A stretch of 61,267 nucleotides of DNA from a virus: positions 1-61,267 of IMG/VR virus record IMGVR_UViG_3300029915_000027; one strand, given 5' to 3'. Position 1 is the stretch's first letter. The number at the start of each line of letters is the position of its first letter. The notes beneath the pieces are model-generated. The model saw only the letters and a list, made by a program, of their open reading frames with translations. It did no database searches and was not told where the DNA came from. Position numbers and translations under genes: made by a program. This document shows, in pieces, positions 3,660-61,267 of the stretch.

Positions 3660-3688
3660 ATTATACCAAGTCTAAACTCTTTTGTCAA
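3660..3688 (-). promoter_or_regulatory. consensus sigma-70 promoter for the DNA polymerase operon
   Basis: On the minus strand the -35 box is TTGACA (3688-3683) and the -10 box is TATAAT (3665-3660), with an exact 17-bp spacer. Both hexamers match the consensus perfectly. It fires leftward into the polymerase leader. Confidence 0.85.
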
Positions 3689-3700
3689 CCCCTTGACAAA
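3681..3700. promoter_or_regulatory. palindrome shared by the divergent -35 boxes
   Basis: TTTGTCAA-CCCC-TTGACAAA is a perfect 8+8 inverted repeat with a 4-bp centre. Each arm holds the -35 hexamer of one of the two divergent promoters. It may simply reflect two abutting -35 boxes, or it may be an operator or activator site that controls both. Confidence 0.6.
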
Positions 3701-3721
3701 TATTTCATTCTGTGTTATCAT
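3693..3721 (+). promoter_or_regulatory. sigma-70 promoter for RNase H
   Basis: TTGACA (3693-3698), a 17-bp spacer, then TATCAT (3716-3721) preceded by TG (extended -10). The RNase H ATG lies only 6 nt after the -10 box, so the expected transcription start coincides with the start codon, giving a leaderless or nearly leaderless mRNA. Confidence 0.8.
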
Positions 3722-3727
3722 ACAAGT

Positions 3728-4180
3728 ATGAGGATGCTTAAATTACATTTTGATGGTTCCTGTTGGCCGAACCCCGGTGGAAAAGCCGGATATGGTTTCA
3801 TTGTATCGGAAAGTGGTGAAGTTGTCAAGTCCGAAACAGGATCGGTTGGTAATGGACCACGAATGACCAATAACCTTGCAGAATTCGAGGCGCTTTACAA
3901 AGGCTTAGAATGGATAAATATTCGATACGGCGCAAATTCCATTACAGGAACAGCTTTTCATAACCCCGACAAATACCTATTAAATGTTTATGGTGATTCT
4001 CAGCTTATCATAAATATAGCTAAAGGAAGGTATCGGGCCACTCCGGGTAAACTTTACTACCCCGCATACGAACGTGCTAATAATGTTTTGAAAGAAATGC
4101 GCCGTCAAAAGAACATTATTATTTTTGATTGGGTTCCACGAGCGCAAAACAAAGAAGCTGACAAAATTAGTAGAGTCTAA
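3728..4180 (+). CDS. rnhA: ribonuclease HI
   Basis: Cleaves the RNA strand of RNA-DNA hybrids, for example replication primers (150 aa). The four catalytic acidic residues of the family can be placed: D9 (HFDGSCWPNPGG), E52 (NNLAEFEALYKGL), D90 (YGDSQL) and D145 (KEADKIS). The length is typical for bacterial RNase HI. A second ATG at 3734 gives the family-like start MLKLHFDGS and could be used instead. The gene is divergent from DNA polymerase and stands alone before the long non-coding stretch. Confidence 0.93.
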   Translation: MRMLKLHFDGSCWPNPGGKAGYGFIVSESGEVVKSETGSVGNGPRMTNNLAEFEALYKGLEWINIRYGANSITGTAFHNPDKYLLNVYGDSQLIINIAKGRYRATPGKLYYPAYERANNVLKEMRRQKNIIIFDWVPRAQNKEADKISRV

Positions 4181-4208
4181 ATTATTTTAAAATATTTCTC
4201 AAAACCCC

Positions 4209-4237
4209 TTGACAAATTATTGATTGTTTGGTAGAAT
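4209..4237 (+). promoter_or_regulatory. sigma-70 promoter reading into the non-coding region
   Basis: TTGACA (4209-4214), a 17-bp spacer, then TAGAAT (4232-4237). The -35 box sits in the same context, CCCCTTGACAAAT, as other promoters of this phage. No gene lies downstream for about 800 bp, so its direct product is an untranslated RNA. Confidence 0.8.
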
Positions 4238-4243
4238 AGTATT

Positions 4244-4947
4244 AATCGTCTAGTTTGTACTATAGCGATACAGCAGTCAGTAATATTAAACGTCAAGAGG
4301 TTCTGGTTAAAACCAGTTTTCCCGGCAACGTGTAGGTTTGATCCTACGCTCCTATCAAACGGAGAGACGCAAGGGCTATTAAAACGTTCCGTAAAGGCGG
4401 AAGGCGGGCGTCCGGGTATAAATGTCTAAAAGGTAAAAACCTCACAAAACGGATATGATGATAACAATCCCGTTAACCCTATGCGTAGGATAATTGGGGG
4501 CTAGGCTCATATTGATATTGCTACCCAATAGGGGTATGTTCCTCTTATGGTCCCATTTAATAGACTATCTATATAAGAAATACATTAGATTATGCTATTC
4601 CTTTGGTTCCGTAAGACAAGACATAGGAAAGCCCTTAGTGTCTCTAAAAATAAGTATTAAGAAAAAGTAGTATAGTATTTCTAAATTCAAGATTTAAGGA
4701 AAGGCTTTTTGGGAAATTCTTTTAATTATTTATATACAATAGAATCAATAACTTACAATGCTTTAACACCATAAGTAGTATCAATAACTATTGACACCTA
4801 TGTTATACTGGTAACAGACATAGTGACTCGGAAACGATACTAAGAAAAGGGCGGTGGCCTCCTCCTATATGCTCCCGCATATACCACCGCTCCTAATTTA
4901 TGGAGTAGCATATTGTTAATTCCTTTCTTAATATGCTACTCCATTTT
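4244..4947 (+). ncRNA. candidate large structured non-coding RNA (about 700 nt)
   Basis: The 863 bp between RNase H and the JAMM gene hold no credible open frame, yet they start with a strong promoter and end in a strong hairpin. Many local stems are visible: GTGTAGG/CCTACGC (loop TTTGAT, about 4330-4349), CTCC/GGAG (about 4350-4365), TTCCG/CGGAA (about 4387-4402), AGGT/ACCT (about 4431-4442), AACGG/CCGTT (about 4448-4474), TACCC/GGGTA (about 4522-4536). At 4851-4890 there is a 14-bp hairpin GCGGTGG + TATATGC with a CCTCCTCC bulge. An extended -10 (TGTTATACT, 4801-4809) may start a second, shorter RNA. Large ornate RNAs such as GOLLD and ROOL are known from phages near tRNA genes. Membership here is only a hypothesis. 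Confidence 0.55.
4901..4947 (+). terminator. hairpin terminator of the candidate non-coding RNA
   Basis: A perfect 14-bp inverted repeat, TGGAGTAGCATATT (4901-4914) and AATATGCTACTCCA (4930-4943), with a 15-nt loop, is followed by TTTT. The short T tract makes it a moderately good intrinsic terminator. It could also be an RNA domain or processing site. Confidence 0.6.
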
Positions 4948-5004
4948 GAGGAGAATAGAGTTTTTGCACTACCTGTGTATTTAATACACTTAATAGAGTA
5001 GTAA

Positions 5005-5025
5005 TACCCCGAATGGGGTAATTTT
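5005..5025 (+). terminator. small hairpin with T tract before the JAMM gene
   Basis: TACCCC-GAAT-GGGGTA followed by ATTTT, 20 nt before the next start codon. It is a weak terminator or a leader hairpin. Its position so close to the ATG also allows a role in start-site access. Confidence 0.4.
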
Positions 5026-5043
5026 AAAATCGCTAGGATCATT

Positions 5044-5481
5044 ATGTCTTATACGGTATATAAAGTTCAAATAAAGAAATCTACTTTGGCATCTTTCCGC
5101 CGCAGAGCAATCCGTTCTAAAAAAGAAATTTTAGCATATTTGGTAGGGTATGTTAGTGATAATATATTTGTAGTAATAGAGGTAGCTTACACAAAGAAGT
5201 ATGAAATTTCTACGCCAGAAAATGTAAAGTGGTTTGACAAAGACTACTATAAAGTTTTAGCAGACGCCCAAAAACAAGATTTAGACATTATTGGAGACAT
5301 TCATTCCCACCCTAATTGCGATGCCATTATGAGTGAGGCTGACTATAACGGTACGGCTTTAGGAAACGTATGTGGAATATGTGCCGTCTATAAAACACCC
5401 AAAAACAACAATAGAAGTTTAATACGTTTTTGGGTTAAAAATAGCGCATTGTGCTGCGATTTAGAATATTTACAGGAATAG
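5044..5481 (+). CDS. JAMM/MPN-domain metalloprotease (JAB family)
   Basis: A 145-residue single-domain protein with the JAMM zinc motif: upstream E29, then H87-S-H89-P and a downstream S97-x-x-D100 (IHSHPNCDAIMSEADY). In the JAB1/MPN family these residues coordinate zinc and cleave isopeptide bonds or C-terminal extensions. In phages, MPN proteins sometimes occur as a domain of tail-assembly protein K. Here it is free-standing, with no NlpC/P60 partner nearby. The substrate is unknown. A weak AGGA ribosome site precedes the ATG. Confidence 0.85.
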   Translation: MSYTVYKVQIKKSTLASFRRRAIRSKKEILAYLVGYVSDNIFVVIEVAYTKKYEISTPENVKWFDKDYYKVLADAQKQDLDIIGDIHSHPNCDAIMSEADYNGTALGNVCGICAVYKTPKNNNRSLIRFWVKNSALCCDLEYLQE

Positions 5482-5520
5482 TAATATAACTACGATAACT
5501 CTGGAGGGAGTAAACAGTTA

Positions 5521-5865
5521 ATGGAAAAACAGGAAAAGATTAAAAATGCTCATTGGTATAAACGTGTGCTTAACCGAATATGCCTAGACGAGCGACTAAC
5601 ACCTAATAGACGTTTACTTGCTGCGATACTCGGTATGCACATGGATGCAATATCCCGCGAAGATAGAATGCTTTATACAGCAATCCTTCTTGGAGAGTTT
5701 GTTAGTAGAAACGGACTAAAGATTTACGACAGTGCGGATCAAAAGTTTGGACCCAATGAAAGAACAAACATAGAACTAGCCGCCGACGCCGCCATAAAGG
5801 ATGTTTTTAGTAGTTTGTTTAGTGGTGACGCTTTTAACGGAGAAAACGATGCAGCCACAGTTTAA
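5521..5865 (+). CDS. hypothetical protein (114 aa)
   Basis: Follows the JAMM gene with a GGAGGGAG Shine-Dalgarno sequence about 10 nt before the ATG. It looks soluble and mainly helical, with charged ends and no recognisable motif. It overlaps the next gene by 17 nt, suggesting translational coupling. Confidence 0.75.
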   Translation: MEKQEKIKNAHWYKRVLNRICLDERLTPNRRLLAAILGMHMDAISREDRMLYTAILLGEFVSRNGLKIYDSADQKFGPNERTNIELAADAAIKDVFSSLFSGDAFNGENDAATV

Positions 5866-6076
5866 AGTAGACTACACACAAACTAAAGGCTTTGCAGATG
5901 TATACACAGTAAATGGATTAGCAATTCCGATAACTCCCCCATATATCCAGTTTGCCACAGATTTTGCTAATATTGTACTAGCTAATTTTATAGCGCACGC
6001 GCAACGGGCCGCACAAATCGCAGCAGAGAAAAGAGTTATAGCGCAAGATAAAAAGCCTCTAATCATAGAGGGGTAA
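5849..6076 (+). CDS. hypothetical protein (75 aa)
   Basis: I place the start at ATG 5849 because GGAG lies 6-8 nt upstream. A longer reading from 5801 would overlap the previous gene by 65 nt with no ribosome site. The protein begins MQPQFKVDYTQTKGF and has a helical, alanine-rich second half. No family is recognised. Confidence 0.65.
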   Translation: MQPQFKVDYTQTKGFADVYTVNGLAIPITPPYIQFATDFANIVLANFIAHAQRAAQIAAEKRVIAQDKKPLIIEG

Positions 6077-6090
6077 TATGGTAACCAGAA

Positions 6091-6106
6091 GTGCTTTGCA
6101 AAGCAC
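6091..6106. promoter_or_regulatory. perfect 16-bp palindrome GTGCTTTGCAAAGCAC
   Basis: A perfect 8+8 inverted repeat without a spacer sits between two small genes, 15 nt before the next start codon and immediately upstream of its AGAAGGA ribosome site. It could be a protein-binding operator or a hairpin that affects translation. No promoter is evident next to it. Confidence 0.45.
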
Positions 6107-6121
6107 ATTAAGAAGGATAAG

Positions 6122-6349
6122 ATGCTCTATAGAGTATATTTTAATAGAAGTGCTGATTTCCCGCTAATATGGTCTTTCGACGAAGGGGATACTTCTACAG
6201 AAGTTTTAGTAACAGATTTTGTCATAGATAATTGTGTAGTTACTAGTGCTTACGATCCCAACGGAGATAACATAAACACCCCCAAAGGATACTTGAGGGT
6301 AGATGCTGAATTTATGTTAATAGAAGACGATATAGTATATTTTTATTAA
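6122..6349 (+). CDS. hypothetical protein (75 aa)
   Basis: A small acidic protein that looks beta-rich (MLYRVYFNRSADFPLIWSFD start, EDDIVYFY end) with an AGAAGGA ribosome site. It ends 2 nt before the tRNA-Ala gene. No family is recognised. Confidence 0.7.
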   Translation: MLYRVYFNRSADFPLIWSFDEGDTSTEVLVTDFVIDNCVVTSAYDPNGDNINTPKGYLRVDAEFMLIEDDIVYFY

Positions 6350-6351
6350 GT

Positions 6352-6427
6352 GGGCGGGTGTTCGGTAAGGGGAACCTTCTGCGCTTGCAACGCGGCGATG
6401 AGAGTTCGATTCTCTCCTTGTCCACCA
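6352..6427 (+). tRNA. tRNA-Ala (anticodon TGC)
   Basis: Acceptor GGGCGGG pairs with CTTGTCC (several G-U pairs), followed by discriminator A and an encoded CCA. The anticodon stem CTGCG/CGCGG encloses loop CTTGCAA, giving anticodon TGC. The T arm is GAGAG-TTCGATT-CTCTC. The D arm (GTTC/GAAC) is shifted by one position compared with the standard, so the gene is slightly irregular. Confidence 0.82.
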
Positions 6428-6435
6428 AATTATGT

Positions 6436-6509
6436 CTGTGTGTAGTGTAAAGGCTGCACCTGTGTTTTGGGAACATATAGTGGAGGTTCAAGTCCTCCCA
6501 CGCAGACCA
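6436..6509 (+). tRNA. tRNA-Pro (anticodon TGG)
   Basis: Acceptor CTGTGTG pairs with CACGCAG, then A and encoded CCA. C1-G72 is the typical first pair of bacterial tRNA-Pro. The anticodon stem TGTGT/ACATA encloses TTTGGGA, giving anticodon TGG. The T arm is GGAGG-TTCAAGT-CCTCC. It lies 8 nt after tRNA-Ala. Confidence 0.88.
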
Positions 6510-6531
6510 TTTAGACCATCTTAGGAGTGTA

Positions 6532-8757
6532 ATGCGTTTTCTTTATTTTATTCTTGCGTTTTTGCTTACAATTCCTTGCGCTGCACAAACATGGTCTGGA
6601 GTTATATCAACAGGTCGCGCAATTGATTGGTCAAATGCTGGAGTAAGTGGCGGAATTCCGTCCGGCTCTTGGACACAATGCGGCTCTACTATATCCGCAG
6701 GAGCATCGGCTTCTACTATAAATACTGCTATCGCTGCGTGTGGAACCAACCAATACGTTCTTTTAGGTGCTGGTACTTTTAACTTAACATCTGGTTTAAT
6801 ATTCGATGTGGTTAATAATGTTGCTCTAAGAGGAGCAGGAGCTAATCAAACTTTATTAGTTTTTACCGGCTCAGCGTCTTGTCAAGGTTTGACAGCTTTA
6901 ATTTGTTTTGAATCTTCCGATACTAATTATTATGGTGCTCCTTCCAATATTGCTAATTGGACAGCAGGGTATTCGGCGGGAAGCACAAGTTTAACTCTTT
7001 CTAGTACAACTAATTTAGCTGTAGGCAGTCCGATAACACTCGATCAACTCGATGATACTTCTGTGCTCTTAAACGTAAGTGGTAATTGGACGAATACATC
7101 GGGCAACGTTTGGCAAGTTACAGAGTCCACTATTACTCCCATACAGGTTGAGTTTAATGGAACTGTAGGAACATCTGTAGGCTCTATTGGTGCGGTTACG
7201 TCTACTAATGATTGGTACTATACGGGTACTACCTTATATGTTTACTCTACAAGCAACCCCGCATCAGCTTTTAGTAGTCCGGGTGTAGTAGCTACAACAG
7301 ACCCCGGAATGGGTGTTTTCGTATGTTATACTCCAACCGGCGTGTGTTCTACTGGGTCGGCTGGCGGAGCAGGTGATAACGGCGGTGGACCAAGAACAGG
7401 TAGGAGTCAACAGCAGTTAGTGACCGTTACTAGTATCTCTGGAAGTGGGCCTTATACAATAGGAATATCTCCCGGTCTATATATGCCAAACTGGGCTTCT
7501 GGAAAAACCCCTCAAGCTTGGTGGGCTACCCATCCCATATCCAATTCTGGCGTAGAGAATCTAAGTATTGATGGAACATCGGCTAGTGCTTCAATGAATG
7601 TACAGATATTCAATTGCAAAGGCTGTTGGGTTAAAGGCGTTAGGTCAATCGACCCCGGACGCTCCCATGTCCAGATGCTACAGTCTGTACACATAACAAT
7701 TCAAGATAGTTATTTTTATATAAACCAATCCGATGTTACAGCGGCTTACGGCATTGAGGCCATACCCGCTAGCGACTCATTGATTCAGAATAATATATTT
7801 GAAGCAGTAACGGCTCCTTATACTGCTAATGGTAGTTGCTCCGGTTGTGTTTTTGCTTATAACTTTGATGTTAATGAAAAATTCGACACAGTTGATAGTC
7901 CTACTTTTCAAAACCAATCTGGTTTTACTCACGCAGTAGGTGACGAAAATATACTATTTGAGGGAAACCAAGGTACCGGGTTTTACTCTGATAATTTCCA
8001 CGGAAGTCATCATTTTATTACATTTTTTAGAAACTCTTATAGCGGTTTTCAGCAAAATAATGGAACCATTACTACAAACCCTTTAACACCAATTATTATA
8101 AATGCCTTTAGTCGTTTTTATAATGTGATTGGAAATGTTCTAGGTTCTGTAGCTATATCAAATATTTACGAAAACACAACATCTGACGCCAATAGTGGAA
8201 ATGCTATTTATAGTGTAGGGTTTGGTGATTTAGTCCCAAACGACTCAAATACTACTTTAAGTTTAATGCGATGGGGTAACTACACCGCCATAACGCAATC
8301 CTCAGATACTCCTGCAAATTCTGGCATTAGGTTTGTTTCTTCTGAAGTTCCTAGTGGAATAACAGCTTACCCTAATTCTGTTCCTAGTAATAACACATTA
8401 CCTGCTAGTTTTTATTTATCATCCAAACCCGCATGGTGGCCTTCAGCTAAACCTTGGCCTTCGATTGGTCCAGATGTTACTAGCGGCAATTTATTAATGT
8501 GTACTAGTGGTACTTATAAAGGCGGGTTTGTACTTAGTAGTGGTTCGTGTACTAGCGGATCGGGATCAAATGCTTATAACGGCCACGCATATACAATTCC
8601 AGCGGCAGATTGTTATATTAGTACGATGGGAGGAAATCCCATAGGAACTAGCGGTTTGCTAACTTTTAATGCTAGCACTTGTTACACTGTAACTAGTGGC
8701 GCTGTTGGTATTACAGGAAATGTAACGTTTAGTGGAAAAGCGTCTATTACCAACTAA
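6532..8757 (+). CDS. secreted right-handed beta-helix protein, fibre or depolymerase-like
   Basis: A 741-residue protein with an N-terminal Sec signal peptide (MRFLYFILAFLLTIPCAAQ, cleavage after CAA). The mature part starts with the IDWSNAGVSGGIP...WTQCG block common to secreted beta-helix proteins and has many N-, S- and T-rich strands typical of pectate-lyase-like parallel beta-helices. It is Ser/Thr/Gly rich, with few charged residues. It follows the tRNA pair and precedes a phosphatase gene. A role as a tailspike-like polysaccharide binder or lyase is an inference. A signal peptide on a phage structural protein is unusual, so it could instead act on the host surface. Confidence 0.75.
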   Translation: MRFLYFILAFLLTIPCAAQTWSGVISTGRAIDWSNAGVSGGIPSGSWTQCGSTISAGASASTINTAIAACGTNQYVLLGAGTFNLTSGLIFDVVNNVALRGAGANQTLLVFTGSASCQGLTALICFESSDTNYYGAPSNIANWTAGYSAGSTSLTLSSTTNLAVGSPITLDQLDDTSVLLNVSGNWTNTSGNVWQVTESTITPIQVEFNGTVGTSVGSIGAVTSTNDWYYTGTTLYVYSTSNPASAFSSPGVVATTDPGMGVFVCYTPTGVCSTGSAGGAGDNGGGPRTGRSQQQLVTVTSISGSGPYTIGISPGLYMPNWASGKTPQAWWATHPISNSGVENLSIDGTSASASMNVQIFNCKGCWVKGVRSIDPGRSHVQMLQSVHITIQDSYFYINQSDVTAAYGIEAIPASDSLIQNNIFEAVTAPYTANGSCSGCVFAYNFDVNEKFDTVDSPTFQNQSGFTHAVGDENILFEGNQGTGFYSDNFHGSHHFITFFRNSYSGFQQNNGTITTNPLTPIIINAFSRFYNVIGNVLGSVAISNIYENTTSDANSGNAIYSVGFGDLVPNDSNTTLSLMRWGNYTAITQSSDTPANSGIRFVSSEVPSGITAYPNSVPSNNTLPASFYLSSKPAWWPSAKPWPSIGPDVTSGNLLMCTSGTYKGGFVLSSGSCTSGSGSNAYNGHAYTIPAADCYISTMGGNPIGTSGLLTFNASTCYTVTSGAVGITGNVTFSGKASITN

Positions 8758-12160: not shown

Positions 12161-14272
12161 ATGATGGCTCTATTAACAGAGAATAGTGGAAATCCTTTTA
12201 GAACACTAGACCCACAAGACTATAAAAGCGATGGGCAATTAAAGACCCTTGGTGCGGAACTGGCTCTTGTAGTAGGAAGTGCTGCTAAGTCCGAAGCCTT
12301 CATTCAAGATAAACAGTGGTCGCTTTTGTGGAGAGATGCCGACCTTTTGTTTCAAAGCCCTAGACCTATGACAGTGTTTGAAAATACCTACATACTTGAA
12401 CCAAACGTCAGCAGGTTTACAGTAGCAAAGGTGGTTAACAGTATTGTGCCACAGCTTTATAAGGGTTTGTTTTATCAAGACCCTCCAATGATAATTCGTC
12501 CTAGGCCCGGAACATCTCAAGAAATAACAGATGCTAAGACTTTTTTGTTTTCTTCAGTTTTGGATTCTGCTAACTTTAAAGAAGAGACTAAAATTGGACT
12601 AGAACAAATGGCTCATTTGGGCACAGGTATATGGAAATGGGGTATTAGATACGAAGAAATCATTACTAGAAAGCGTGTAGCGACTGTTAGTAAAATAACA
12701 GCAGGTCCAGTAGGTGCTCAAGAAACGGCTCTATTACCTACCGATTCTCCCCCAAGTATTCAAACAAGTACGAGAATAGCTCCTAGAGTGTACTTTGAAA
12801 GCCGCGAAGTTAGCAAAGTTTTAATTGATCCTCATACCCCCGTAGGAGATATTCGTAAGTCTTCTTATGTTATAGATATTCGTTATATGGATTTCTATGA
12901 GATGAAGATTTTACGAGACGCTATAAAAGAACTACCAGAGGGTCATCCCGAAAAAGAAGGATGGGATTTACCACAAACGGATAGTGAACTAATGTCTTGG
13001 TGGATGCCTCCGGTAGAAGATACCCCCGTTCTTAGTACAGACCAAGCCACATATTCAGAGGGTGTTGTTCACCATTCAGAAAAGTTACAAGTTAATACTT
13101 CTCCTGATTTGCTTTTTAAGAAATTAGAAGTGTTAGAGTATTGGGACAAACGCAAACAAGTTCATGTTGTAGCTCGCAAAAAAGTAATAAAGTCTGGTAA
13201 AAATCCTTATGGAGTTACGCCATTCTTATCCTCTAATTGGTGGAATCGTCCCAAATCTTTCTACGGAATGGGACTAGGGTTAATTGTTGGACAGAACCAG
13301 CGCGTAGATCAGGGTACTATTAATGCCATTCTAAAGATTTTGTCATTTGGTGTCAACCCTATTTATCTCCGTAAGCGAGACTCAAACACACCCACACAAA
13401 TGATAGGAACAGGGATAGGTAAGATATTAACAGTTGATACTGAGGTTGATAAGAGCTACAAACTCTTAGATATGCCGAAAGTTCCTGCCGAAGTTTGGAG
13501 TGCGTTAGCCGAATCTGAAAAAGCTACAGAAAGTAGCTCAGGTGCCGACCAAACACTAGTACAAGGTTCTACTGCTGGACCGCGAACCTCTATGGGTCGA
13601 ACAGCCGGTGGTGCTGCTCAGTTAGGCGCTGCCAGTGCAACCCGCTTAGACGGCCCGTTAGATAATTTTATAGAACAAGTATTTAAGCCATTCTTGTACA
13701 TCCTTGATATGCTTATTTTTACTTATTTCTCCGATTACGAGATATTCACTATTCTTGGCGAAGAAGTCGGCAAAGACTTTGAAATGGATTTCCAACAGTA
13801 TCACGATGCTGTGTTTACCTATGAAGTTCTTGCAGGAGCTAGTTTAGCTGCTAAACGTACTATGAGTCAGTCAATGACTCTTATTGAGCAAATCTTCACC
13901 AATCCTAATATTCAGGAAATGCTTGCAGATATAAACCAAGAATACGTAGACATTAAAGTTATTCTTAAAATGTGGATGGAAGCCTCAGAGTGGAAGAACG
14001 TTCAAGACATTATTAAACCCATGACCGAGCAAATGAAGCAAAGAAGGCAAGCACAGTCGCAAGCTGCTCAACAGAATAGTAAGTTTTCACAACAGAGTCA
14101 GCTTTTGAATCAAAAGGCACAATTAACTGCTGCCCAAAAACAACAAGACGCTCAAGACAGGTTCCAGAGAGACATTGTTGTAAAGGCTTTGTTAAATAAT
14201 GGAGAGTCTGAATCATCTGAAGGACAGCCTAATACAACAGGGTTAGATGCCTCAGAACCAACAGTTGAATAG
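12161..14272 (+). CDS. portal protein
   Basis: 703 aa. The large portal core includes a GLIVGQNQRVDQGTINAIL-like stretch and a following region on nucleic-acid path and assembly, with a glutamine-rich, helical C-terminus (from about residue 620). Position between TerL and the scaffold supports the call. Tandem ATGs (12161 and 12164) follow AAAAGGGGG with almost no spacing. A 14-codon reading frame starting at 12142 overlaps this start and may provide translational coupling. Confidence 0.9.
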   Translation: MMALLTENSGNPFRTLDPQDYKSDGQLKTLGAELALVVGSAAKSEAFIQDKQWSLLWRDADLLFQSPRPMTVFENTYILEPNVSRFTVAKVVNSIVPQLYKGLFYQDPPMIIRPRPGTSQEITDAKTFLFSSVLDSANFKEETKIGLEQMAHLGTGIWKWGIRYEEIITRKRVATVSKITAGPVGAQETALLPTDSPPSIQTSTRIAPRVYFESREVSKVLIDPHTPVGDIRKSSYVIDIRYMDFYEMKILRDAIKELPEGHPEKEGWDLPQTDSELMSWWMPPVEDTPVLSTDQATYSEGVVHHSEKLQVNTSPDLLFKKLEVLEYWDKRKQVHVVARKKVIKSGKNPYGVTPFLSSNWWNRPKSFYGMGLGLIVGQNQRVDQGTINAILKILSFGVNPIYLRKRDSNTPTQMIGTGIGKILTVDTEVDKSYKLLDMPKVPAEVWSALAESEKATESSSGADQTLVQGSTAGPRTSMGRTAGGAAQLGAASATRLDGPLDNFIEQVFKPFLYILDMLIFTYFSDYEIFTILGEEVGKDFEMDFQQYHDAVFTYEVLAGASLAAKRTMSQSMTLIEQIFTNPNIQEMLADINQEYVDIKVILKMWMEASEWKNVQDIIKPMTEQMKQRRQAQSQAAQQNSKFSQQSQLLNQKAQLTAAQKQQDAQDRFQRDIVVKALLNNGESESSEGQPNTTGLDASEPTVE

Positions 14273-37824: not shown

Positions 37825-38544
37825 ATGCCGTCGTTAAGTGATGCAATATCTACTTATAAGGAAAATAAAGAAATGGCTGGATATAAAAGTATTCAGCCAT
37901 TTAAACCTAGCCCTGATTCTGGAGCTACCGGAACTTCTACTTTAAGTAGAAGTGTATTCCTTCGGTGTCCTTTACCTGTTGTACTTACAGGTGCTACTGA
38001 CTCTTCAAGACAATATTACAGAAATGGTGTTGTACCTCAGTTTCGTTGGGTAAGTCCTCAATCTGTTCCTATAAACAGTTCTGGCGTTACGAGTGCTACG
38101 ACAATTGGTGGAGGCGGAGGCGGTGGTTCTAGTTCGGGTGGTTCGGGTGGCGGATCAACTACGCCGTCAACATTACAGCAAGTTTCTATAACTACACCAT
38201 CTCTAAGTGCTAATAAACAGTTTGTTAGTTCTTTCTTAGTTAGTCCTTCTTTTCAATTGATAAATTTATCTGCTACTAAGGGATGCCGTGTAAGGCTGTA
38301 CGGAACACAAACCGCGCAAAACGGAGACTTAGGAAGAGGATTAGACGTTCCTCCAGCAGCAGGAACCACTCAAAATTTAATAACTGATTTCGTATTCGAT
38401 ACAAGCCCTTTCCAGTGGACCTATCAAAGTAGGACAGGAGCTAACGGGGATAAACCGTCGTCTTCTAAAATCTATATAACAGTTACTAACATAGAAACAA
38501 CTAGCAGTGTTATAGTAGTTACTTTAGGTTATGTTCCTACATAA
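37825..38544 (+). CDS. virion protein with poly-Gly/Ser linker (239 aa)
   Basis: A helical N-terminus (MPSLSDAISTYKENKEMAGY) is joined by a GGGGGGGSSSGGSGGGST linker to a beta-rich C-terminal domain of about 120 residues. It looks like an anchored appendage with a flexible arm. An AAGGAG ribosome site is present. Function is not recognised. Confidence 0.65.
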   Translation: MPSLSDAISTYKENKEMAGYKSIQPFKPSPDSGATGTSTLSRSVFLRCPLPVVLTGATDSSRQYYRNGVVPQFRWVSPQSVPINSSGVTSATTIGGGGGGGSSSGGSGGGSTTPSTLQQVSITTPSLSANKQFVSSFLVSPSFQLINLSATKGCRVRLYGTQTAQNGDLGRGLDVPPAAGTTQNLITDFVFDTSPFQWTYQSRTGANGDKPSSSKIYITVTNIETTSSVIVVTLGYVPT

Positions 38545-59047: not shown

Positions 59048-61267
59048 CTACTTACTATCTTTCTCAAGAAAAGAATTTGATACTATTTTAAGCTGCGGCC
59101 TACCAAGTCCTCTAACAGTACGATCATCTAAAGCAGTGATAACAATTCCTTCACGAACGTGGTTTGCCCCCGTTGCACTCTTACCGTCTACTATACCCTT
59201 AATAACATCGTAGTCGTAAGGTCCGTCATAGAGAACAGGAACGAAACGTCCTCCGTAGTTGTCTATAAGATGCCATGCTATATTTTTAGGTTCCCATTCA
59301 CCCTTTGGTGTCCTAACATCAAAAGCAAAAAATTGAATCTTTCCTTTTTGATTAGGACTAGTTATATAATCAAAACCGCCTTGCGTAGGTGTAATTTCAC
59401 CCCAAAGCACATAACCGGGATTGTTCCTACAAAACTCTCCAATCCAAGGGTTGTCAACTAATGCTCGTCTCCATGCACAATTACTATCAGCCGCTTTCCA
59501 AAGGTTACGGCTTCCAGCGTATTGCGCACCGTCAAGATATAGATACCTAGCGTTCGAGTTGTGTACAAGAATGTTATTAGCAAAGTAGTTATGTGTTTCT
59601 GTTTCTAAATCATACTTCTTAGAGGTTATTGTAGGAGCGCTTTCTATACTTGTAATAGAAACTGATACTAACTCTGGTTTATAAACAGATTCAGTGTTTG
59701 GTAACCATCCTTCCCCTCCTCTGTAGCGTTCAGGCAGTTTCCTTTGCATACATTTTGGTATATAAGGAGCAATTAATAAAAACAATCGTTCTGCGTTTTC
59801 AGTATTTAACACAATTCTATTATAATCGTGTTGTGACACTTCAGCTTCTACGCCTAACCTTGCTAACGCTTTAATTAAAATAGTACAACTTTTATAGTCG
59901 AATCCGCAAGTAGCGAAAGATGCTCGGTCTTCTTGCCCATCACTATGACATAGGCTACCATCATCCATATACCAAAAAGCTAGAGACAATGGTGTTAATT
60001 CACTTTCTACCCAAAAAGGAACTTGTTTCTTGTCTCCTTCATAAAAACATTCAAATTCTTGTTTAAGATAGCCCGTTCCTATAGAACTTCCTCTAAACAT
60101 ATTAGTTCCGTAGCCACTAACATAATTATCGGTTCTATGATTTGCTAAGTTCCCTAATCCTTTTAAAGTCCAGTTTAGGTAATCTTTGTCTTTTTCCCTA
60201 TGCCCGAAGTGAAGTGCAGAGGTACTAACTGCTGTTGCAAGATGCCCATCTCCTAACAGTTTCCCTAAAACTACTTGGTATTGAACGGGCGTTAGACTTA
60301 AATCAGTTCTAAGTGTTAGTACATGTTCGCCTATACTAAGGCTTTTTGCTTCTACAAATTCTTGCTTTTCAACTACCCAAAACTTATGCTCAGGTGTGCA
60401 GTATACTGCGAAGAAACTGTTACCTCGTCCTGCCAATCCTTCACGTTTACCGGACACACGCAACCATTGTTCTGTCTTTCCGTTGTTGTATGTTTTAACA
60501 ACCTTGCTAGAGGATACACTTCCTGCTTTATTTACTCCTGTAACAACATCTCCTATTTCTATATCTCTTATAAACTTTCTAGTCCCATTTGCCATTCTAA
60601 CTTTGGTTGAGCCTATTACACATCCATGTATCTTCTCTGTCACAAAGACATGTTCGCCGTCCTTAAACACGTTAGGATAATTCTTAAACCCCTCTACATC
60701 GTATGTTGGTACATGAAAACTAACGGTTTCTGAAAAGTTCTTCTCGTCCCTTCGTAGACGTAATTTATGAAGCAGAAAGAAAAACCAACCCTTCAACGTA
60801 GTAGGATACTTACGTTTTAGTTTAGGAGCACCTTTTATTACCTTTTCGTTATCGCCAGTGCTACCGCGTCCAGTATCAGGGTCGTAGTGAGTGATACCGA
60901 GGAGGTCTGATACGTCTGTTCCAACAGGATAGTCTGACTCTACAAAATGATTTGTTAGTACACTATCAAGTAATTGTGGAAAATCAAACACTGGTAATAG
61001 CAACCCCTCAGACCATTCCTTACGAAACTTCCTAACAGTAATGCGTAAATACTTAGTCGGTACTACTCCATTAATATCTTCATGACCTTCCCATAAAAAC
61101 TTAAAAGTCTCACTTTTAGGTACTATGCTATCCGGCTGGATATAAACCCCTAAATCGCCTACTTTAAACTGGCCCTTACGAGTAACTACTTGAAAACCTC
61201 CGATAGGAATTATTTCAAGATTATCCGCGTTAGTATGCGGTAAGATTTCCTCAATGCGTATGACATT
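59048..61267 (-). CDS. RNA ligase (Rnl5-like, OB domain) with intein, 5' end beyond the window
   Basis: The frame runs to the right edge (739 residues visible), so the start lies outside; a TTG at 61003 is internal. The N-part (VIRIEEILPHTNADNLEIIP, then GGFQVV and KGQFKVGDLG) is an OB-like domain as in the DRB0094/Rnl5 ligase family. The adenylation motif KIHG-SNA is split by the intein after Gly. Later motifs FFAFD, EGIVI and LKIV complete the nucleotidyltransferase core. It seals RNA ends, possibly in repair of host-cleaved tRNA. Confidence 0.85.
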   Translation of the reverse strand, partial: NVIRIEEILPHTNADNLEIIPIGGFQVVTRKGQFKVGDLGVYIQPDSIVPKSETFKFLWEGHEDINGVVPTKYLRITVRKFRKEWSEGLLLPVFDFPQLLDSVLTNHFVESDYPVGTDVSDLLGITHYDPDTGRGSTGDNEKVIKGAPKLKRKYPTTLKGWFFFLLHKLRLRRDEKNFSETVSFHVPTYDVEGFKNYPNVFKDGEHVFVTEKIHGCVIGSTKVRMANGTRKFIRDIEIGDVVTGVNKAGSVSSSKVVKTYNNGKTEQWLRVSGKREGLAGRGNSFFAVYCTPEHKFWVVEKQEFVEAKSLSIGEHVLTLRTDLSLTPVQYQVVLGKLLGDGHLATAVSTSALHFGHREKDKDYLNWTLKGLGNLANHRTDNYVSGYGTNMFRGSSIGTGYLKQEFECFYEGDKKQVPFWVESELTPLSLAFWYMDDGSLCHSDGQEDRASFATCGFDYKSCTILIKALARLGVEAEVSQHDYNRIVLNTENAERLFLLIAPYIPKCMQRKLPERYRGGEGWLPNTESVYKPELVSVSITSIESAPTITSKKYDLETETHNYFANNILVHNSNARYLYLDGAQYAGSRNLWKAADSNCAWRRALVDNPWIGEFCRNNPGYVLWGEITPTQGGFDYITSPNQKGKIQFFAFDVRTPKGEWEPKNIAWHLIDNYGGRFVPVLYDGPYDYDVIKGIVDGKSATGANHVREGIVITALDDRTVRGLGRPQLKIVSNSFLEKDSK
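59558..60622 (-). other. intein with LAGLIDADG endonuclease in the RNA ligase
   Basis: 355 residues. It begins with Cys1 (CVIGSTKVRM), has block B T-P-E-H (YCTPEHKFWV), two LAGLIDADG-like helices (LGKLLGDGHLA and LAFWYMDDGSL), and ends in block F/G YDLETETHNYFANNILVHN with the next extein residue Ser. These are the residues needed for protein splicing (Cys1, His-Asn, +1 Ser). Removal joins KIHG to SNAR, restoring motif I. Confidence 0.92.

Follow-up and report, generated by a model that had tools for sequence, protein, structure and literature searches.

What occupies positions 4181-5043 of the window, by which we mean the whole 61,267-nt stretch of viral DNA analysed here, between an RNase H gene on its 5' side (3728-4180, + strand; PF00075) and a JAB-domain gene on its 3' side (5044-5481, + strand; PF14464)? 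The first-pass annotation had called this stretch gene-free, and we indeed found no credible reading frame in it, the longest frames opening with ATG, GTG or TTG being 58 and 49 aa. Using the RNase H gene as query, we obtained relatives at 36-47% protein identity; a search with the JAB-domain neighbour returned nothing but the identical contig. A homologous noncoding element lies 3' of RNase H on the same strand in L003, L004, L005, L012, L015, L016 and L080, and is divergent, on the other side of RNase H, in L011 and in the cultured phage Tunturi_3 (L096). Across nine syntenic homologous regions neither a conserved nor a consistently matching frame was found, and the tblastn matches were weak and scattered; thus, we rejected a protein-coding reading of 4181-5043. 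A DNA_pol_A gene (PF00476) as well as the RNase H gene lies beside the core RNA in the window, and two divergent near-perfect promoters (12/12 matches on the - strand and 11/12 on the + strand) are located between the polymerase and RNase H genes (3660-3721).

Extent of the transcript and the second RNA element

The near-consensus promoter of the first-pass annotation is borne out: the sigma70-type site TTGACA-17-TAGAAT (4209-4237, + strand) has 11 of 12 matches and a TG before the -10, and we infer from the sequence a start of transcription at 4244. When the upstream DNA was shuffled 300 times, three of the shuffles scored as high. Moreover, a sigma70-like promoter precedes the RNA in all syntenic relatives of the window clade, and the distance from the -10 end to the core is kept at 83-89 nt in 8 of 10 clade members. 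Homology and covariation indicate that the conserved part of the transcript is about 410 nt (4244-4650, + strand), its 3' end being placed tentatively, and the fold of 4244-4950 is more stable than those of shuffled sequences (z = -3.5; none of 20 shuffles as stable). The earlier claim of a single 860-nt RNA does not hold, given this length of the conserved RNA and a minimal core of 165-200 nt in relatives; rather, the comparative data resolve 4181-5043 into two separate RNA elements: the core RNA at ~4244-4650 and, at 4850-4947, a bulged hairpin with a terminator.

No clear or strong terminator was found directly 3' of the core. The 14-bp hairpin with a T tract that had been proposed as the end of the RNA (4901-4947, + strand) stands as a hairpin (4901-4943), but the T run is short (TTTT), and the hairpin falls outside the terminator scan because its loop is long; we regard it as a probable weak terminator. 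A terminator-like hairpin with TTTTG occurs at the equivalent place in two relatives (L015 and L080), where it is followed by a gene with a strong ribosome-binding site. A second promoter-like -10 (TATACT, 4804-4809, + strand) was read from the sequence, with irregular spacing in the window, and several relatives have a TTGAC-16-TATAAT-like site at this position. We also noted a motif, AGAATCAAYARSTT, repeated next to tRNA genes and ahead of the second promoter (L009 at 6637, 6954 and 7043; window at 4742-4755; L005 at 5977), which is not repeated elsewhere in the window.

The second element (4850-4891, + strand), which is supported by covariation, is a hairpin with an exact 8-nt bulge, CCUCCUCC (4858-4865), and UA..UA; in the window, the 4901-4947 hairpin comes next. 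We identified it in the window and in L003, L004, L005, L009, L011, L012, L014, L015, L080 and L096. Across 11 relatives, pairing holds in 84 of 88 stem cells, and none of 100,000 swaps is as good; the stems were counted directly, the MAFFT alignment having shifted the window row. The bulge, on the 5' side of the hairpin, is exactly CCUCCUCC except in L004, L009 and L015, where it is CUCCUCC. In most clade members a promoter-like site and then the bulged hairpin follow some 150-200 nt after the core, and the element, often with its own promoter and terminator, lies upstream of the first virion-arm gene. The bulge sequence is complementary to Shine-Dalgarno sequences, and the hairpin may restrain ribosomes on the following gene or respond to them, or may act as a small RNA.

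Fold and covariation of the core RNA

The core (4321-4646, + strand, as are all of its parts) has a fixed order: the 5' strand of helix X, hairpin H, the 5' strand of helix PK, the 3' strand of X, a variable domain closed by helix P5, a purine joint and the 3' strand of PK. As helices X and PK interleave, they form a pseudoknot. In the window, the 5' strand of X is CCCGG-CA-ACG with the CA bulged (4321-4330) and its 3' strand is CGT-CCGGG (4409-4416), both supported by covariation; H is GTAGG-TTTGAT-CCTAC (4332-4347), with a loop that is mostly UANUNGAU in relatives; and the strands of PK are AAGGGCT (4371-4377) and AGCCCTT (4630-4636). P5 (ATGTCT, 4422-4427, with AGACAT, 4619-4624) closes the variable domain (4428-4618), the size of which differs widely among relatives (98-236 nt for the whole V segment). 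The purine-rich joint AGGAA (4625-4629; mostly GGGAW in relatives) precedes the last PK strand, and the conserved tail AGTGTCTCTA (4637-4646; consensus nGUGUAYCU) follows it. A further hairpin, P2 (CTGGTT-AA-AACCAG, 4303-4316, + strand), has three pairs with two-sided changes and conserved TTCTG..CAGTTT, and is absent from some compact relatives. Core length ranges from about 165 to 340 nt across the family. The letters of the helices change with their pairing kept: for X, CCCGG/CCGGG in the window stands against CCGGG/CCCGG, CTAGG/CCTAG and CCTGG/CCAGG in relatives, and the window keeps X, H, PK and P5 with compensated letters of its own (X additionally ACG/CGT).

Covariation in the homologous regions is strong for X, H and P2. 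In the 15-sequence alignment of the 5' domain, the 19 pairs of these three helices are 92.6% paired, 10 of them have changed on both sides, and the covariation score is 0.391 versus 0.117 for shuffled data (0 of 500 as high) and at most 0.10 for slid controls. For hairpin H, 64 sequences gave 304 Watson-Crick and 6 G-U pairs out of 320 cells. The pseudoknot was spotted by reading, the linker before the second X strand being complementary to a site just before the conserved tail. In a partner-swap test on 22 sequences, native PK strands reached -12.5 kcal/mol versus -8.2 kcal/mol for swapped ones (0 of 100,000 permutations as good). Since some 3' sites in this set had been chosen by eye, we ran the test again on a separate set of 45 phage sequences, in which the motif RGGGAH alone determined the 3' site, and none of 100,000 was as good for either PK (native -11.7 versus swapped -6.9 kcal/mol) or P5 (-13.3 versus -8.1 kcal/mol); a subset of 16 sequences with the tail motif gave the same outcome. 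A wobble-pair strand test was mixed, PK favouring the + strand and P5 the - strand, and was not used. Finally, a covariance model (R2) from whose construction the window, L004 and L012 were left out has a single match in the 61 kb window, at 4294-4422 (49.3 bits, E 9e-11), and also recovers the other left-out members and bacterial copies. With its own promoter, covarying helices and this leave-out match, the structured RNA gene proposed in the first-pass annotation is well supported.

Distribution and genomic setting of the family

Scanning with a pattern of the 5' domain gave eight viral contigs, two of which lack RNase H at the locus, and ten bacterial contigs, of which three are real (Granulicella, Pirellula and a Planctomycetia MAG); the other seven (L086, L087, L090, L091 and L093-L095) were dropped as chance matches because the rest of the core is absent. 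With another model, R1, a search of 399 genomes from the Granulicella class added six copies, and one of 392 genomes from the Pirellula phylum added two; in one of these eight (L099), X and H are present and the PK partner was not found. A compact core pattern recovered 58 viral stretches, 48 of them distinct. The relatives found, about 70 in number, belong to phages, all environmental apart from the cultured Tunturi_3, and to integrated elements scattered over Acidobacteriota and Planctomycetota; they were counted as distinct sequences rather than independent lineages, some of the 48 viral sequences possibly being close kin. Among cultured phages, the RNA was found in Tunturi_3 only, where it is unannotated. 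This phage was reached through its polymerase and RNase H, not by blastn of the RNA; blastn of the window or of the consensus core against cultured phages and plasmids gave chance matches only. A term search of the Tunturi_3 paper (PMC11924767) turned up no noncoding RNA. As five bacterial loci share an integrase family (Pfam Phage_integrase for one) and ParB-like genes adjoin others, the bacterial copies of the RNA look like integrated elements. One Pirellula contig (L092/L117) carries 15 tRNA genes and an HNH-like ORF at 4338-7330, with the RNA and a ParB-like gene some kb away; this cluster looks like a mobile tRNA array. On one phage contig (L190; G813) there are two RNA model matches on opposite strands (37935-38021, -, and 13310-13390, +).

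Neighbour genes, identified from naive frames with a small number of Pfam scans, vary by phage and include RNase H, helicase, HNH, ParB-like, integrase, portal-like and unassigned genes. In the window clade, the RNA lies at the divergent junction of the replication arm and the virion arm (the latter carrying terminase and portal genes in the window), where it is the first or a near-first virion-arm element in 6 of 6 phages, and the cumulative T-A skew has its maximum at or near the RNA in all six genomes. Such a placement at a junction or skew extremum was not seen in ten genomes of other clades, which suggests that the window clade may put the RNA to use at an origin or in a late operon without this being the role of the family. 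A ribosome-binding site and gene start occur within 120 nt after the core in 22 of 43 relatives, versus 19% at random sites. In L160, L172, L191, L192 and L016, a small HNH endonuclease gene starts no more than about 40 nt from the core. A different endonuclease segment, of the LAGLIDADG type, lies inside an RNA ligase frame elsewhere in the window (59048-61003, - strand; PHROG residues 237-416, the ligase match being 460-651), and is possibly an intein.

The first-pass annotation had also stressed the proximity of tRNA genes. This is correct for the window clade, with tRNA-Ala (6352-6427) and tRNA-Pro (6436-6509) together some 1.3-1.5 kb downstream of the RNA region in the window, and for a few integrated copies (L092 and L104), but only a handful of 57 further viral stretches have a tRNA gene within the DNA examined, so tRNA proximity is probably not a family trait, and a tRNA-array RNA was rejected as the defining description. 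Permuted tmRNA genes occur in several relatives (L005:1414-1669, -; L009:166-410, -; L012:853-1201, -; all above threshold for Rfam RF04321); ARAGORN calls one in L051 too, and none was detected in the window.

Identity and role of the core RNA

We compared the RNA with the 4227 models of Rfam 15, searching the window at curated thresholds, 4100-5100 at E ≤ 10 and the relatives at E ≤ 1-2. The window gave tRNAs only, 4100-5100 gave chance matches only, and the relatives gave tRNAs, permuted tmRNAs and chance matches, none of them on the element. The first-pass annotation had found the dimensions of the region to fit the class of GOLLD and ROOL, large ornate RNAs of phages and bacteria (PMC12286853). 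The likeness consists in a phage-encoded, noncoding, strongly structured RNA of some size with tRNA genes nearby in the window clade; however, the core is 165-340 nt, in contrast to the many domains of those RNAs, and tRNA proximity does not seem general. As the models of GOLLD, ROOL, OLE and HEARO, and of every other Rfam family, were all negative on the window region and the relatives, these families were rejected, and membership in one of the known large RNAs is highly improbable. HEARO and IscB-type guide RNAs likewise resemble our RNA in being structured and sometimes followed by an HNH gene, but the adjoining HNH proteins are small (~130 aa) and clade-specific, and no IscB, IsrB or TnpB gene was noticed among the selected neighbours scanned by Pfam. 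The suggestion that this may be a new family thus holds for Rfam 15, and the promoter-driven, pseudoknotted noncoding RNA, which recurs in dozens of other environmental phages and also in certain bacterial genomes, probably represents a new family of phage RNAs. It could instead be a motif published outside Rfam: a 2010 list (PMC2864571) includes Soil-1, Solibacter-1 and Rhodopirellula-1, motifs from soil, an Acidobacterium and Planctomycetes for which its table gives no Rfam accession. We consider this very unlikely; nothing in the main text of that paper links them to the core. A ribozyme, either a reduced, non-splicing relative of group I introns or a self-cleaving RNA, is also quite unlikely. 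The order X-H-PK-X-P5-J-PK does reproduce the group I order P3-(P4-P6)-P7-P3-P8-P7, with X and PK interleaving as in the P3-P7 pseudoknot, P5 in the place of P8 and a purine-rich joint before the last strand, and HNH genes lie downstream of some copies (L016 and L160). The likeness is one of topology only, however: a 5-bp hairpin stands in place of the P4-P6 domain, the PK sequence is fully variable whereas group I P7 is conserved with its guanosine site, no interrupted gene was seen, and no group I covariance model in Rfam matches the window RNA.

With regard to its role, we lean with middling confidence to 4244-~4650 being a stand-alone structured noncoding RNA outside Rfam, for which action in trans is the most likely role. 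Host RNA polymerase would transcribe it from the sigma70 promoter at 4209-4237, the transcript would fold into the compact pseudoknotted core shown by covariation (helix X, hairpin H, PK and the P5-closed variable domain), and the folded RNA, or an RNA-protein particle, would, as we infer, act on a target in trans during infection. We favour a trans role because the structure is kept rather than any linked gene, because the neighbour genes differ from phage to phage, and because the RNA also rides on integrated elements. The 22 of 43 close gene starts also suit a cis-acting leader, and we do not explain them away. Such a leader, the 5' part of the virion-arm transcript controlling it through RNA-based antitermination or translation of the next gene, is the main rival, possible though doubtful: it would fit an RNA at the strand switch and skew maximum in all six clade phages and the absence of a strong terminator right after the core, but the RNA is not at the junction in other clades, the downstream genes are unrelated, and a second promoter-like site separates RNA and next gene in most clade members. 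A single-pathway riboswitch was rejected, the downstream genes being too diverse. A role like that of ColE1 RNA II, in which the phage RNase H would process the RNA and the adjacent family A DNA polymerase would extend it as a replication primer, seems unlikely to us. The two systems share a structured RNA beside these genes, RNase H adjoins the RNA in 6 of 8 contigs of the unbiased pattern scan, and the skew switches at the RNA in 6 of 6 window-clade genomes; yet the RNase H/polymerase association is restricted to one phage clade, the RNA in other clades is off the skew extremum and mostly has no RNase H nearby, and this RNase H was absent from the DNA checked for integrated copies. A replication-origin RNA was rejected as the family-wide role, the skew evidence being positive in the window clade and negative elsewhere.

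Returning to the trans-acting RNA, we give about even weight to the broader reading that it represents a widespread, undescribed class of phage noncoding RNA with a pseudoknot core, which would act in trans as a particle, decoy or ribozyme during infection of poorly studied phyla and would pass among phages and integrated elements as an independent module. Large structured RNAs without an assigned job belong to the few parts of phage genomes that still lack an explanation, and here there are about 70 distinct relatives, a firm pseudoknotted secondary structure and one cultured pair, Tunturi_3 on Tunturiibacter psychrotolerans X5P2, which opens the expression, structure and necessity of the RNA to laboratory tests. 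These results suggest that whole RNA families in environmental phages of Acidobacteriota and their relatives were overlooked, because almost no cultured phage carries them.
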